DNA from: Hyphococcus sp.
GTDB lineage: Bacteria > Pseudomonadota > Alphaproteobacteria > Caulobacterales > Parvularculaceae
Direction: 5' to 3'
Assembly (NCBI GenBank): GCA_028281665.1
Contig: JANQJK010000014.1
Location: 1 to 64,000, forward strand
Length of the DNA stretch: 64,000 nucleotides
The notes under the pieces were generated by a model. The model was not told where the DNA came from. It did not search any database and saw only the letters and a list, made by a program, of their open reading frames with translations. The translations under genes and the position numbers were made by a program. Below are positions 12,164 to 64,000 of the stretch, piece after piece (positions within the stretch are counted from its first letter, which is position 1; every line of letters begins with the position of its first letter).

Positions 12164-15619
<3,456 letters not shown>

Positions 15620-31251: not shown

Positions 31252-31327
31252 AGGGGTGTAGCTCAGTTGGTAGAGCATCGGTCTCCAAAACCGAGGGCCG
31301 GGGGTTCGAGTCCCTCCGCCCCTGCCA
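31252..31327 (+). tRNA. tRNA-Trp (CCA anticodon)
   Basis: A complete cloverleaf can be drawn: acceptor AGGGGTG/CGCCCCT, D arm GCTC-AGTTGGTA-GAGC, anticodon stem TCGGT/ACCGA with loop CTCCAAA (anticodon CCA), T arm GGGGG-TTCGAGT-CCCTC, discriminator G and encoded CCA. It lies 62 bases after lpxB. Its 3' end is followed 64 bases later by a tandem repeat pair typical of integrase arm sites, so it has probably served as an insertion target. Confidence 0.96.
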
Positions 31328-59889: not shown

Positions 59890-60152
59890 GTTTGAAACTC
59901 GGCCGTCTGCCTGATCGCACGCCTGTCAAACTTAACCTGGCGCTGACGCCGGACGTTTATGCAGCGCTCGGTGATTACGCCGCGCTGCATGCAAAAACAT
60001 ATGGCAAGGATGCGCCGCTGCCCGATCTCGCAGCGCTGATGATTGAAGAGTTCTTGAAACGCGACACTGAATTCAAAAGAGCGAGAAGGGAACTCACTGA
60101 CAAACGTAGTACAAGGAACACACACCATGGATCGGCTGCTGACGGCGAATGA
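59886..60152 (+). CDS. DUF2274 family protein
   Basis: An 88-residue protein regularly found after trbI: LKLGRLPDRTPVKLNLALTPDVYAALGDYAALHAKTYGKDAPLPDLAALMIEEFLKRDTEFKRAR. The pattern VKLNLALTPDVYAALxDYA with a following helix is ribbon-helix-helix-like. It ends the trb operon; its role is not known. The last 26 bases overlap the AlpA-like gene in another frame. Confidence 0.88.
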   Translation: MSLKLGRLPDRTPVKLNLALTPDVYAALGDYAALHAKTYGKDAPLPDLAALMIEEFLKRDTEFKRARRELTDKRSTRNTHHGSAADGE

Positions 60153-60333
60153 AGTGTTGACACTGACTGGCTACAAAAGTCGATCGACACTTTGGCGAAA
60201 AGTACGCGGCCGGGCGTTTCCGCCGCCTGTTAAACTCGACGGCGTCGCAATAAGGTGGAAGGAGGGAGAGGTGCGCACTTGGATTGAAGACGCGCCCATC
60301 CAGTCTTACGGTACTAAAGACCGCTCCGCATGA
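60127..60333 (+). CDS. AlpA/excisionase-like DNA-binding protein
   Basis: A 68-residue helix-turn-helix protein: LLTANEVLTLTGYKSRSTLWRKVRGRAFPPPVKLDGVAIRWKEGEVRTWIE is the AlpA pattern of small phage-type regulators and excisionases. It is the second excisionase-like gene of the region after the RdfS-like one. It may serve the recombinase at 60818 or the ICE integrase. Confidence 0.85.
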   Translation: MDRLLTANEVLTLTGYKSRSTLWRKVRGRAFPPPVKLDGVAIRWKEGEVRTWIEDAPIQSYGTKDRSA

Positions 60334-60351: not shown

Positions 60352-60660
60352 TTAAAGTTCTTCGGGTTCTATCAGTGATATCGCAGTGCGTAAAAAAGCA
60401 TCTTGCTGCTCCGCGGTAAGCTTTCGGAATAACGTAAGAAGTTTCCGTTCCTGTGGGTTTGTTGCAAGCGCTTCGCCTTCCAAAATCTCGAGAGGATGAC
60501 AATTCAAAGGCGTCGCAAGCCTTGTGAGCCATTCTACCGAAAACCGCCTGCGGCCGTTCTCGAGGTGGCTAATCTGTTGATTGCTGGCGCCCGTCGCTTC
60601 AGCCAATTGCGCAAGAGTTAAGCCTCGCGCTAAGCGAAGTTCCTTTAGTCGATTATTCAA
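60352..60660 (-). CDS. XRE-family repressor
   Basis: A 102-residue protein with an N-terminal helix-turn-helix (NNRLKELRLARGLTLAQLAEATGASNQQISHLENGRRRFSVEWLTRLATPLNCHPLEIL) and a short C-terminal helical tail. The frame extends to 60756, but the domain begins exactly at the TTG at 60660, which has GGGGGCCCC behind it; the longer version would run over the operator at 60692. Two matching palindromes lie between it and the divergent recombinase gene, so it probably represses both. Confidence 0.85.
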   Translation of the reverse strand: MNNRLKELRLARGLTLAQLAEATGASNQQISHLENGRRRFSVEWLTRLATPLNCHPLEILEGEALATNPQERKLLTLFRKLTAEQQDAFLRTAISLIEPEEL

Positions 60661-60691
60661 GGGGCCCCCGGCTTCTGTTCGCAATCCAATT

Positions 60692-60707: not shown

Positions 60708-60760
60708 GACGATTCGTAAAAAACCTCAAAAAATGCCTAATTCCGATGGACTCCAATAAG

Positions 60761-60783
60761 ATTTCCTACTATTTGTAGGAAAT
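60761..60783. promoter_or_regulatory. Operator-like palindrome between XRE and recombinase genes
   Basis: ATTTCCTAC and GTAGGAAAT form a perfect inverted repeat with 9-base arms and a 5-base spacer, ending 35 bases before the recombinase start. It is in the position of a repressor site covering the recombinase promoter. Confidence 0.75.
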
Positions 60784-60817
60784 CTCTAAATGAATTTACC
60801 CCATCTTCCGGGCGAAC

Positions 60818-62404
60818 ATGGCGGACGACACCGAATACTATGAAGCGAAATTCGCGGGTTCTGCAGTGAGCAGCGAGCAAACGCCGCTCCGAGCGGCTGA
60901 ATACGTTCGCATGTCTACTGAGCATCAGAGATATTCCATCGAGAACCAATCTGACGTGATTAAAAAGTACGCGGCACGTCACAATATGGAAATTATCCGA
61001 ACATATTCAGATTCCGGCAAAAGCGGCCTTAATGTCGATGGTCGAAGCGGACTGAAACAGTTGCTTCTAGATGTCGATCTGAAAAGGGACGAGTTTGATA
61101 CCGTTTTGGTATATGACGTTAGTCGATGGGGGCGCTTTCAGGATGCGGATGAAGCCGCTTATTATGAATATATCTGCAAGAAAGCGGGTATAGCGATTCA
61201 TTATTGCGCTGAACAATTTGATAATGACGGCAGTCCTGTTTCGACAATAGTAAAAGGCGTTAAGCGTGCCATGGCGGGCGAATATAGCCGCGAGCTTTCG
61301 GCGAAAGTATTCGCGGGCCAATGTAGGTTAATTGAGAAAGGATTTAGACAAGGCGGACCAGCCGGTTATGGGTTGCGCCGCATTCTTATCGATGAACATG
61401 GCCGGCAAAAAGGGGAATTAAAGCGAGGCGAGCACAAGAGCCTTCAAACCGACCGCGTTATATTGGCTCCTGGACCGAAAGAAGAAGTCAGAACCGTAAA
61501 TCGAATCTATGCCATGTTCACTGAACAGGGCATGTGTGAGTCAGAGATAGCAGAGCGTTTAAACAGCGAAGGACTGGTTACGGACTTTGGACGAATTTGG
61601 ACGCGGGGCGTGGTACGACAAATTTTGACCAACGAAAAATATATTGGTCACAACGTCTTTAACCGAACGTCGTTCAAACTCAAGCAACGCCGGGTTCGGA
61701 ACGCGCGTGATATGTGGATCCGCTCCGATAATGCGTTCGAATCAATCGTTCCAGCAGAAATCTTTCACATAGCGCAAGGGGTAATCCGAGAACGATCTCG
61801 GCGGTTGAGTGACGACGAAATGATCACACGCCTGCAGAATCTATATAAGCGTTATGGATATCTGTCCGGCATCATAATTGACGAAACAGAAGAAACGCCG
61901 TGCAGCAGCGCATATGCACACCGCTTTGGCAGCCTTTTGCGTGCTTACTCTCTCGTTGGGTTCAGTCCAGATCGAGACTATCGGTACATTGAAATCAATC
62001 GGAAGCTGCGTGCGTTTCATCCAAACATAGTTGGTGAGGTGGTGGCTGGCATTGAGTCGCTTGGAGCAACTGCAGTCCATGACCCCGCCACCGATCTTAT
62101 TCATGTCAATTGCGAATTCACGGTTTCGATTAGTATTTCGCGGCACTTTCAGACCCCAGCCGGCGCATCGCGTTGGAAAGTACGCTTTGATACGGGGTTA
62201 AGGCCGGATGTCACCGCGGCCGTGCGAATGGATCAACTCAACGAGCATCCTTTGGATTACTATTTTCTGCCTTTGATCGAATTTAATCGCCACGCCATCA
62301 GTCTTGCAGATCAGAACGGTCTTGCATTTGACGCTTACAGGTTCGATTCATTTGGAGCCTTATTCGATATGGCGCGGCGTCAAGCAATCTTAGAGGCTGC
62401 ATGA
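60818..62404 (+). CDS. Large serine recombinase
   Basis: A 528-residue site-specific recombinase. The resolvase domain has the nucleophile Ser33 (AAEYVRMSTEHQRYSIENQ), then TYSDSGKSGLNVDGRSGLKQLL and VLVYDVSRWGRFQDADEAAYYEY. The recombinase domain follows (GPAGYGLRR, then IWTRGVVRQILTNEKYIGHNVFNR). No zinc-ribbon cysteine cluster is obvious in the C-terminal part. It is divergent from the XRE gene and overlaps the ParB-like gene by four bases. Base composition is AT-richer than the trb operon, suggesting separate acquisition. Confidence 0.94.
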   Translation: MADDTEYYEAKFAGSAVSSEQTPLRAAEYVRMSTEHQRYSIENQSDVIKKYAARHNMEIIRTYSDSGKSGLNVDGRSGLKQLLLDVDLKRDEFDTVLVYDVSRWGRFQDADEAAYYEYICKKAGIAIHYCAEQFDNDGSPVSTIVKGVKRAMAGEYSRELSAKVFAGQCRLIEKGFRQGGPAGYGLRRILIDEHGRQKGELKRGEHKSLQTDRVILAPGPKEEVRTVNRIYAMFTEQGMCESEIAERLNSEGLVTDFGRIWTRGVVRQILTNEKYIGHNVFNRTSFKLKQRRVRNARDMWIRSDNAFESIVPAEIFHIAQGVIRERSRRLSDDEMITRLQNLYKRYGYLSGIIIDETEETPCSSAYAHRFGSLLRAYSLVGFSPDRDYRYIEINRKLRAFHPNIVGEVVAGIESLGATAVHDPATDLIHVNCEFTVSISISRHFQTPAGASRWKVRFDTGLRPDVTAAVRMDQLNEHPLDYYFLPLIEFNRHAISLADQNGLAFDAYRFDSFGALFDMARRQAILEAA

Positions 62405-63306
62405 TGGCAAACGAACCGCAAACCAAGGTTGAGCTAGTGGATGTAAACAGTATCCATGTACTAAATCCACGTGAGCGTGATAAAGCAAAATATCAAACTG
62501 TTGTTGAAAGTATATCGGCAGTTGGATTAAAGCGGCCAATAAAAATTAGTCAACGACCACCAAAGACCATCAACGGTAGCGGCAAAATCTATAATCTTGT
62601 TTGCGGGCAAGGCAGGCTAGAGGCATTTAAACGGCTAGGGGAGACAAAAATTCCTGCAATAGTCGTCGATCTATCCGAGGAAGATTGTTATCTGCAAAGC
62701 CTCACAGAAAACTTAGCTCGCAGGCTGCATTCTTCCTTAGACTTTGCTCGAGATATCGAGCGGCTCTCAAAGCGTGGATATTCGCCAACCGATATCGCGG
62801 AAAAAACGGGTCTTCGACGAGATTATGTGCAAGGGGTCTTACGCCTTTTTAGCCAGGGCGAAGTGCGTTTACTTGCGGCAGTTGAACGTGGTGAGATACC
62901 AGTATCTGTAGCGGTAGAAATAGCTGCGACGCCCGACGAGGAGGTACAGCAGGCTTTGACAAACGCCTATGACAGGAATGAACTCCGGGGCCGGAAATTG
63001 CAAACCGCAATCCGTATTGTCCGAGAACGGAAACGTTTTGGAAAAAAGATAATTCGGACGGTCAACGGTAGTAAGAGAAGCGTTTCATCGCAAGCGATCG
63101 TTCGTGAGTACAAACGTGAAACGGAACGCCAACGGATGCTCATAAAACGCGCCGATATCACCGAAGCGAGACTTGCGGTCATTAAGAGTGCGCTCCACGT
63201 GTTGTTAGGCGACGAGGATTTCGTGAACCTATTGCGCGCAGAAGGGCTGGAAACAATGCCGTCGCAAGTCGCGGAAATGATGCGCGGGAGCGAGACGGCG
63301 CAATGA
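62401..63306 (+). CDS. ParB/RepB-like partition protein with RepB C-terminal domain
   Basis: A 301-residue protein. The ParB N-terminal domain is seen at about 10-110 (VDVNSIHVLNPRERDKAKYQTVVESISAVGLKRPIKI, LVCGQGRLEAFKRLGETKIPAIV, and ENLARR), then a helix-turn-helix (GYSPTDIAEKTGLRRDYVQGVLRLF), and a C-terminal part like plasmid RepB partition proteins. No ParA ATPase gene is visible. Its ATG overlaps the recombinase stop and its stop overlaps the next ATG, so three proteins are translated as one coupled unit. Confidence 0.9.
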   Translation: MMANEPQTKVELVDVNSIHVLNPRERDKAKYQTVVESISAVGLKRPIKISQRPPKTINGSGKIYNLVCGQGRLEAFKRLGETKIPAIVVDLSEEDCYLQSLTENLARRLHSSLDFARDIERLSKRGYSPTDIAEKTGLRRDYVQGVLRLFSQGEVRLLAAVERGEIPVSVAVEIAATPDEEVQQALTNAYDRNELRGRKLQTAIRIVRERKRFGKKIIRTVNGSKRSVSSQAIVREYKRETERQRMLIKRADITEARLAVIKSALHVLLGDEDFVNLLRAEGLETMPSQVAEMMRGSETAQ

Positions 63307-64000
63307 CAGGAAAGATAGAAATTTCCTTTCAGGAAATCTGGCGTGAACTTCCTATATCGAAATTGGTCCCTTCGCGGCTTGTTAGTGCAGTATCGAAAAC
63401 TTCAACGAAGTATCGCCAGATCGCAGACTCAATTAACGAAGTTGGCGTCGTTGAACCGTTGGTTGTATTTCGAGTGTCGGGGCGCAAAGAGGAGTACCTC
63501 GTTCTTGATGGACATATGCGTTTAGAAGTGTTGAAGGATAAAGGCGACGAAAGAGCGCCATGCATTATCTCAAAAGATGACGAGGCGTATACTTACAATA
63601 AGCGAATCAACCGCATTGGCACTGTGCAAGAACATCACATGATATTGCGAGCAATTGAGAATGGAGTGCCGGAAGATCGCATCGCTGCTGCGCTTGGCAT
63701 CAAAGTATCTTCAGTAAAGAGAAAGAAAGCGCTGCTGGATGGTATATGTGAAGAGGTTACAAAAATATTGGAAAATGTACGGTTCTCGGACGTTACGGCG
63801 AAAATTCTTAAGCGCATGAAGCCAATCCGACAGATTGAAGTTGCCGAACTGATGGTCGCCACGAACAATTATTCTGCCTCCTACGCAAAAGCGCTTTTAA
63901 TTGCCACGCCAAAACCTCAAATGGCTGACCCCAATGAGAAGAAGGCGGTCAGAGGAGTTTCCGAAGAGCAATATTCAAAAATGGAACAAGAAATGAAGAC
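63303..64000 (+). CDS. Second ParB-like protein, cut by the window end
   Basis: The frame starts at the ATG overlapping the preceding stop (ATGA) and is open for 232 codons to the window edge. The N-terminus reads ISFQEIWRELPISKLVPSR, followed by ADSINEVGVVEPLVVFRVSGRKEEYLVLDGHMRLEVLKDKG, a ParB N-terminal domain. A helix-turn-helix follows (ENGVPEDRIAAALGIKVSSVKRKKALL). It is related to but clearly different from the first ParB-like protein. The C-terminus is missing from the window. Confidence 0.88.
   Translation, partial: MTGKIEISFQEIWRELPISKLVPSRLVSAVSKTSTKYRQIADSINEVGVVEPLVVFRVSGRKEEYLVLDGHMRLEVLKDKGDERAPCIISKDDEAYTYNKRINRIGTVQEHHMILRAIENGVPEDRIAAALGIKVSSVKRKKALLDGICEEVTKILENVRFSDVTAKILKRMKPIRQIEVAELMVATNNYSASYAKALLIATPKPQMADPNEKKAVRGVSEEQYSKMEQEMK

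Follow-up and report, generated by a model that had tools for sequence, protein, structure and literature searches.

A large serine recombinase encoded with two ParB-like proteins, and often followed by a conserved structured RNA, in bacterial mobile elements

Large serine recombinases are employed in genome writing and are not known to require more than a single small directionality factor. The closest described relatives of the recombinase analyzed here are the large serine integrases YokA of SPbeta, Bxb1, phiC31, and TP901-1 together with CcrB of SCC, which share its Resolvase and Recombinase domains and are its best matches in NCBIfam, among solved structures, and in Foldseek. It differs from them in having no zinc-ribbon Pfam match and in being encoded with two ParB-like partners. 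Those partners can be compared with RepB of repABC systems and with ParB/Spo0J, since the first of them also has the ParB_N, HTH_ParB, and RepB domains and the ParB motifs. Unlike repABC RepB and ParB/Spo0J, however, they are two paralogues in one operon with a recombinase and without ParA, the second lacks a conserved glutamate, and the scores lie far under the NCBIfam RepB cutoff. By description only, the recombinase may also be likened to those of Paracoccus prophages, for which the largest cluster of integration modules is reported to be 11 of 15 serine recombinases with integration sites that were not identified; neither a two-ParB operon nor an RNA is described in the available part of that paper (PMC6536676). 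Furthermore, among the open PMC papers listed by our searches, no title or abstract opening describes a unit of this kind. Our analysis suggests that the widespread gene set and its RNA represent undescribed helper machinery for moving mobile DNA. If this is true, a recombinase family with two ParB-like partners would constitute a new way to control integration, ParB clamps would gain a job outside segregation, and the RNA, which often accompanies the unit and is more alike between copies than the proteins are, would add a testable RNA family.

The window, by which we mean the whole 64,000-nucleotide stretch of Hyphococcus DNA that was analyzed, closes with an operon of three plus-strand genes. 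These encode a large serine recombinase of 528 amino acids (REC, 60818–62404), a ParB/RepB-like protein of 301 amino acids (PB1, 62401–63306), and a second RepB-like protein (PB2, 63303–64000 and on to the contig end at 64109). A divergent minus-strand gene encodes an XRE-type helix-turn-helix (HTH) regulator of 112 amino acids (R, 60352–60690), and an inverted repeat with perfect 10-bp arms and a 5-bp spacer (60760–60784, assigned to no strand) lies between R and REC. An earlier note on this DNA had described an AT-rich cassette, coupled by four-base overlaps and devoid of ParA, and all three observations held: the open reading frame positions confirm overlaps at 62401–62404 and 63303–63306, the GC content is 0.45 to 0.49 in the unit versus 0.60 in the trb operon, and no ParA is present inside the operon. 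PB2 is incomplete, with 269 codons readable up to the contig end, 109 bp beyond the window; complete relatives have 284 to 315 amino acids, and that of locus L036 is cut at 137. Because the contig stops inside PB2, the 3′ end of this unit is unreadable in the assembly.

On balance, we lean toward the explanation that R-REC-PB1-PB2, joined in many relatives by a structured RNA, is an integration/excision module of prophages, ICEs, islands, and plasmids. In the mechanism that we propose, R would repress the operon, while PB1 and PB2 would form a hetero-clamp, loaded at sites beside att, and in the role of accessory or directionality factors would pair the correct ends for REC. The RNA would take part in the REC/ParB complex or in expression of the operon. 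These roles of the ParBs and the RNA are suggested by their co-conservation and position. The interpretation in the earlier note is partly supported, namely for the conserved unit lacking ParA in its operon, the adjacent regulator, and, in some genomes, the nearby borders; that the ParBs guide the recombinase or silence the element would go further than these observations.

REC carries the Pfam Resolvase and Recombinase domains, and residues R31, S33, Q37, D100, R103, and R106 are identical in all 27 aligned REC sequences. We take these invariant residues to be the serine recombinase catalytic set, with Ser33, in an RMST motif, presumably being the catalytic serine; the catalytic serine, arginines, and Recombinase domain expected of a large serine recombinase are thus present. 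No family representing a zinc ribbon with a coiled coil was among the Pfam matches of the C-terminal part, and the sole invariant cysteine of the aligned sequences, C130, lies in the N-terminal part. The C-terminal 200 amino acids gave only HNH_repeat, below its cutoff (14.5 of 26 bits). Solved large serine integrases were the top Foldseek matches of the structure model (mean pLDDT 73, pTM 0.43), at low TM-scores of 0.21 to 0.26, and by sequence the REC profile matched solved integrases in the catalytic part or at residues 213 to 324.

PB1 matches the Pfam families ParB_N (32.7 bits), RepB, and HTH_ParB, and its AlphaFold2 model has a mean pLDDT of 80.2. Residues G69, G71-R72, A75, and E103-N104-x-A106-R107 are identical in 18 of 18 aligned sequences, so that both the GxxR and ENxxR motifs are kept; we take these conserved residues to be the ParB nucleotide-site motifs, which in ParB proteins mark CTP binding and hydrolysis. 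PB2 matches RepB at 90.2 bits, with ParB_N under its cutoff (23.7 of 26.3). The invariant positions among its 21 aligned sequences include D69-G70, R73, and N99, and the conserved ENxxR glutamate was not seen. Neither protein reached the 201.5-bit cutoff of the NCBIfam repABC RepB model TIGR03454, the scores being 39.1 and 19.1 bits with PB2 scanned without its end.

The RepB matches of PB1 and PB2 bear on a different explanation, in which the unit would be a stability module: REC would resolve multimers, and the RepB-like pair would aid segregation with a ParA supplied by the host replicon or chromosome. There is plasmid evidence in its favor, since 67 plasmid records match REC, 50 match PB1, and some host plasmids carry their own ParA. 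However, in the annotated loci that were read, ParA was found neither among the three genes nor immediately next to them, and copies also occur in chromosomal islands and viral contigs. In addition, we know of no partition layout in which two different ParBs are tied to one recombinase. A stability module is unlikely in our judgment.

A run of short palindromes follows PB2 in four enterobacterial relatives (at 13475–13600 in L026 and 23575–23700 in L080, and also in L027 and L081), and these four loci share a block that extends from a mobQ gene to about 300 bp after PB2. The palindromes are possible ParB sites. They exceeded those of shuffled DNA in all four loci (related to one another there; 10 single-base shuffles each). 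An excess was also seen after PB2 in L009 and L022 and before REC in L023, with no shared sequence, and a common palindromic site was rejected.

Conservation of the gene set was assessed by the genome survey for which the earlier note had called. A scan of species genomes yielded 28 loci, with REC 43 to 69% identical, in the Alpha-, Beta-, and Gammaproteobacteria, Planctomycetota, and Myxococcota, and REC, PB1, and PB2 occur in this order at 24 of them, including L024, whose contig holds only the 3′ part of REC. The contigs of L004, L017, and L018 end inside PB1, and L030 gave no ParB match in this survey. Frames are broken among the 24 in PB1 (three loci) and in REC (one locus). The four-base REC/PB1 overlap recurs in 19 of 27 loci (L003 to L029), as judged with script-chosen start codons.

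Within the window's own order, relatives of REC at an E value of ≤1e-60 occur in 38 of 398 genomes. A full close REC was found at 24 places; G157:C43 yielded no locus, and the other 23 all match PB1 as well as PB2, the latter over its first part or more; the PB2 matches are mostly partial, as the loci are short and most end inside PB2, and that of L036 is cut short. The 23 do not include L072 and L073, where REC is partial and lies at a contig end, or L074, where REC is split and both ParBs match. The earlier note had regarded frequent loss of the ParB genes from homologous cassettes as a point against its proposal. Such loss is not seen among the close relatives but is seen among distant recombinases (about 36 to 48% identity), of which L075 to L078 gave no match to PB1 or PB2. 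Other distant relatives have one ParB (L085) or a ParB remnant (L086), and no ParB is annotated beside REC in L087, with three tandem recombinases, or in L088, with REC alone. From this comparison of close and distant loci, the pair of ParBs therefore marks one part of the recombinase family. On sequence evidence, conservation of the REC-PB1-PB2 order beyond chance is confirmed.

Two arrangements in this wider set may be recorded here. The three recombinases of L087 (5270–11476, on a Massilia plasmid) belong to the wider family and point in the same direction, with an insertion sequence between two of them and no ParB adjoining. In L030 (8370–9105), a segment matching REC residues 321 to 389 recurs three times after the main match.

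R matches the Pfam families HTH_31 (53.9 bits) and HTH_3 (50.3 bits). In PADLOC, it gave general HTH matches, PB2 gave a weak methyltransferase match, and REC and PB1 gave none. The "own repressor" of the earlier note stands insofar as an XRE-type gene does adjoin the unit; that it represses the operon is what we infer. By eye, an HTH gene adjoins REC in 8 of 13 listed loci. Four of these genes are of the window's XRE type, the R-like genes in the open reading frame lists of L003 and L009 (minus strand) and of L015 and L028 (plus strand). The others, in L010, L013, L014, and L050, are of a second type, with no Pfam match for those of L013 and L050. The inverted repeat is a candidate operator or binding site, and a shorter version of it, with 7-bp arms and a 5-bp spacer, is found at −54 from REC in L003. 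These HTH genes and the palindrome suggest control, and ParB-family proteins such as KorB can repress genes. Both points would suit a regulatory module in which the element is silenced by ParBs spreading along the DNA and REC is an ordinary integrase with no tie to them beyond the common operon. However, co-conservation and close coupling with REC over five bacterial groups fit a joint complex better, and we consider a regulatory module of this kind quite improbable.

The carriers of the unit are plasmids, islands, an ICE end, and viral contigs. In Sphingobium, the plasmids that hold the unit have replication and partition genes of their own. In Escherichia coli, 648 of 5,426 genomes match a three-gene query from L026, 7 of them over at least 80% of the query and 641 over less (37% in the matches listed). 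All three genes are present in the six E. coli loci that were read, five of which lie in islands at ssrA. In three of the six (L079, L082, and L083), REC is not the sole integrase, because the gene next upstream of it is the integrase of the ssrA island. A profile scan of viral contigs gave 165 relatives, and the best 80 of these comprise 65 full units, six loci with PB1 only, and nine with neither ParB; in 14 of the 15 incomplete loci, at most 1.2 kb of DNA is left after REC. Of the 65 full loci, 33 have the 5′ side of REC no more than 5 kb from a contig end, 11 have the PB2 side no more than 3 kb from one, and 21 are near neither end; these thresholds are our own choice, and a contig end need not be a prophage end. 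Genes that, by eye, we take to resemble a phage tail module adjoin the unit in L231 and L235. On an Agrobacterium plasmid (L089, 8273–23083), a TniQ/TniB/Mu-type transposon gene set lies on either side of the unit; a related plasmid, L090, retains the whole second set but just one TniQ from the first.

The earlier note had also envisaged an independent mobile unit whose borders and att sites should be sought. A small unit of this kind would fit the borders in L129, L130, and L131 (genomes G257, G116, and G157), where the shared block starts 583, 326, or 303 bp before REC and ends 135 to 143 bp after PB2 and the flanks differ; other copies occur within larger islands or viral contigs or at their ends. 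In G052 and G213, the shared block runs from 455 bp before REC to 6.3 kb past PB2, near the end of the fetched DNA. At the best-resolved borders, the unit extends no more than about 0.6 kb on the upstream side of REC and 0.15 kb on the downstream side of PB2. The borders lie close to the operon in some genomes, as sought, but no att core was identified at those of L129 to L131 or of the island described below.

In G278, which comes from the same genus sample as the Hyphomonas locus L003, the unit is the last operon, at the right end, of a 16.0-kb island (C1:188100–204133). The island is absent from G221, G226, and G100, which have 18 to 20 bp between the matching flanks; G310, the fourth genome compared, holds 320 bp of other DNA at the site. 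PB2 stops at 204003, and the chromosome resumes 130 bp later as judged by the three empty sites; the island ends fall in short intergenic DNA and are not fixable to the base. The island could also have been moved by other genes that we saw on it by eye. Left of the unit (L119/L120, C1:189448–199563), we recognized, also by eye, genes that are presumably like a three-part ATPase defense set, together with what we take to be a Cas1-like protein and a large exonuclease/polymerase-like protein.

The trb end of the window matches five relatives of the same genus or family up to 60046–60076, after which those relatives run into another gene, presumably DUF736. A sixth relative (L322) matches to 60089 and then has an HTH gene. 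Past the trb homology, the window continues into an AlpA-like gene, R, and REC, and its unit may form the integration end of this ICE. The AlpA-like gene (60127–60333, plus strand; Pfam Phage_AlpA, 40.1 bits) is of the excisionase type, has its stop 19 bp before the 3′ end of R, and may be part of the ICE or of the unit. Upstream of the trb region is a tRNA-Trp gene (31252–31327), the sole tRNA found in the window and a possible ICE insertion site.

Taken together, the borders in G278 and L129 to L131, the viral contig ends, and the trb junction count in favor of an integration/excision module. The lack of an att core, the ssrA integrases, the Sphingobium plasmid location, the other genes that could have mobilized the G278 island, and the 21 mid-contig viral loci count against it.

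Several candidate target sites were considered and rejected. Long flanking direct repeats were present in 9 of 41 loci compared (L012, L016, L020, L052, L054, L084, L091, L092, and L094) and had suggested a common target gene, but the repeated genes, as seen by eye, differ: in L054 and L084 they are integrase ends, in L016 the end of a transposase, and in L012 another gene. Targeting of tRNA genes was set aside as well; complete tRNAs were found in three of 39 loci scanned (L010, L026, and L027), none adjoining the unit, and, by eye, a tRNA-like 3′ fragment lies 998 bp before REC in L127/L128. Elements lacking the unit were sought in E. coli, where 1,291 genomes matched, but among the sampled matches those with the integrase alone were only 79 to 88% alike, and no empty site was obtained. 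No empty site was found for L130 or L125, and none was taken up from a search of 28 genomes with the L009 flank. In L135, where a gene that we take to be kdpE ends 38 bp before the end of R, eight relatives (81 to 89% identity) match only to the kdpE-like gene, but the DNA after it varies among relatives, so that no junction is established. For L137, the right flank resumes in G198 206 bp after the RNA, but the left flank has no match.

Many alphaproteobacterial copies of the unit end with a conserved structured RNA of about 129 nucleotides. Mean column identity of the DNA after PB2 is 83% in ten loci, and PB2 of L005 is 44 to 54% identical to PB2 of ten other RNA-bearing loci. RNAalifold predicted 35 pairs, 11 with compensatory changes, from nine MAFFT-aligned sequences, and a covariance model gave 33 matches in 34 sources. 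In the alignment of these 33 sequences, which are related and were fitted to the covariance model in a way that favors it, 97.0% of 1,050 cells pair, and double changes occupy 116 cells versus 35 in shuffles. The covariation score is 0.374 versus 0.167 shuffled; none of 500 shuffles scored as high, and sliding gave no more than 0.113. There are 14 pairs, versus 11.5, with any double change, and 21 of 500 shuffles reached this number. G-U pairs occur in 12 of the 33 sequences at columns 70–104 and in 8 of 33 at columns 33–65. As a structure, the RNA is well supported by these comparisons. The folding of five single RNA sequences was not clearly superior to that of shuffles (z, 0.48 to −1.62), and no Rfam family reached its threshold in 701 bases of one locus, L137 (best score, 20.7 bits versus 112).

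Alternatively, the conserved element after PB2 may act as DNA, as an att or centromere-like site, and not as RNA. Its position at the unit border in L129 to L131, the variable inverted repeat that forms its last hairpin, the short palindromes after PB2 in the four enterobacterial relatives, and the shuffle-like folding of single sequences all speak for a DNA site. However, compensatory changes in long-range helices and many G-U pairs are expected for an RNA rather than for double-stranded DNA sites, and we hold a DNA role to be possible but somewhat unlikely.

The RNA was detected in 13 of 398 genomes of the order, beside the full unit in nine and beside PB2 or a remnant in three; that of G287 is without PB2 and, by eye, adjoins a transposase-like gene. 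Across the class, it was found in 14 of 385 genomes (17 places), and all 16 newly fetched loci have PB2 or its 3′ part 15 to 104 bp upstream, with the whole unit in 12. Nine plasmid records have the RNA, five of them seen with PB2 and two (L191 and L192) with no PB2 seen; Paracoccus plasmid pTAV1 carries the RNA. Two exact patterns located it in 13 viral contigs, with PB2 adjoining in eight and not within the DNA examined in five. In the aligned set, PB2 or part of it is directly upstream in 30 of 33 examples. An RNA match is absent from 14 of the 23 order-level genomes with a full close REC, the window's included, a count that assumes that the REC and RNA surveys used the same draw of 398 genomes. 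L003 and L009 gave no RNA match, and the window's DNA ends inside PB2, so that an RNA could not show there.

A REC tree of 76 rows was built from matches with at least 440 aligned residues and no stops (107 places, 79 distinct), from which L081, L083, and L084 were dropped as near copies. The RNA label needs 11 changes on this tree, with labels set by hand and L013 (22.6 bits, E value of 0.046, in the right place) counted as RNA negative; the RNA has thus been lost, replaced, or missed many times. This scatter, the 14 genomes without a match, and the single-sequence folds count against an integration/excision module in which the RNA takes part. A further reading joins the large serine recombinase, a ParB hetero-clamp, and a dedicated RNA in one complex, with the RNA or its variable terminal hairpins as a working part that directs the recombinase to the ends to be joined. 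Such a complex, which would be a serine-recombinase counterpart of RNA-assisted transposition, is in our view distinctly improbable.

Downstream of the RNA, similar ParB-like, small, and terminase-like genes follow, as seen by eye, in L135 (13786–17077), L171 (10394–13712), and L172 (10376–13694), a gene set that resembles the start of a prophage.
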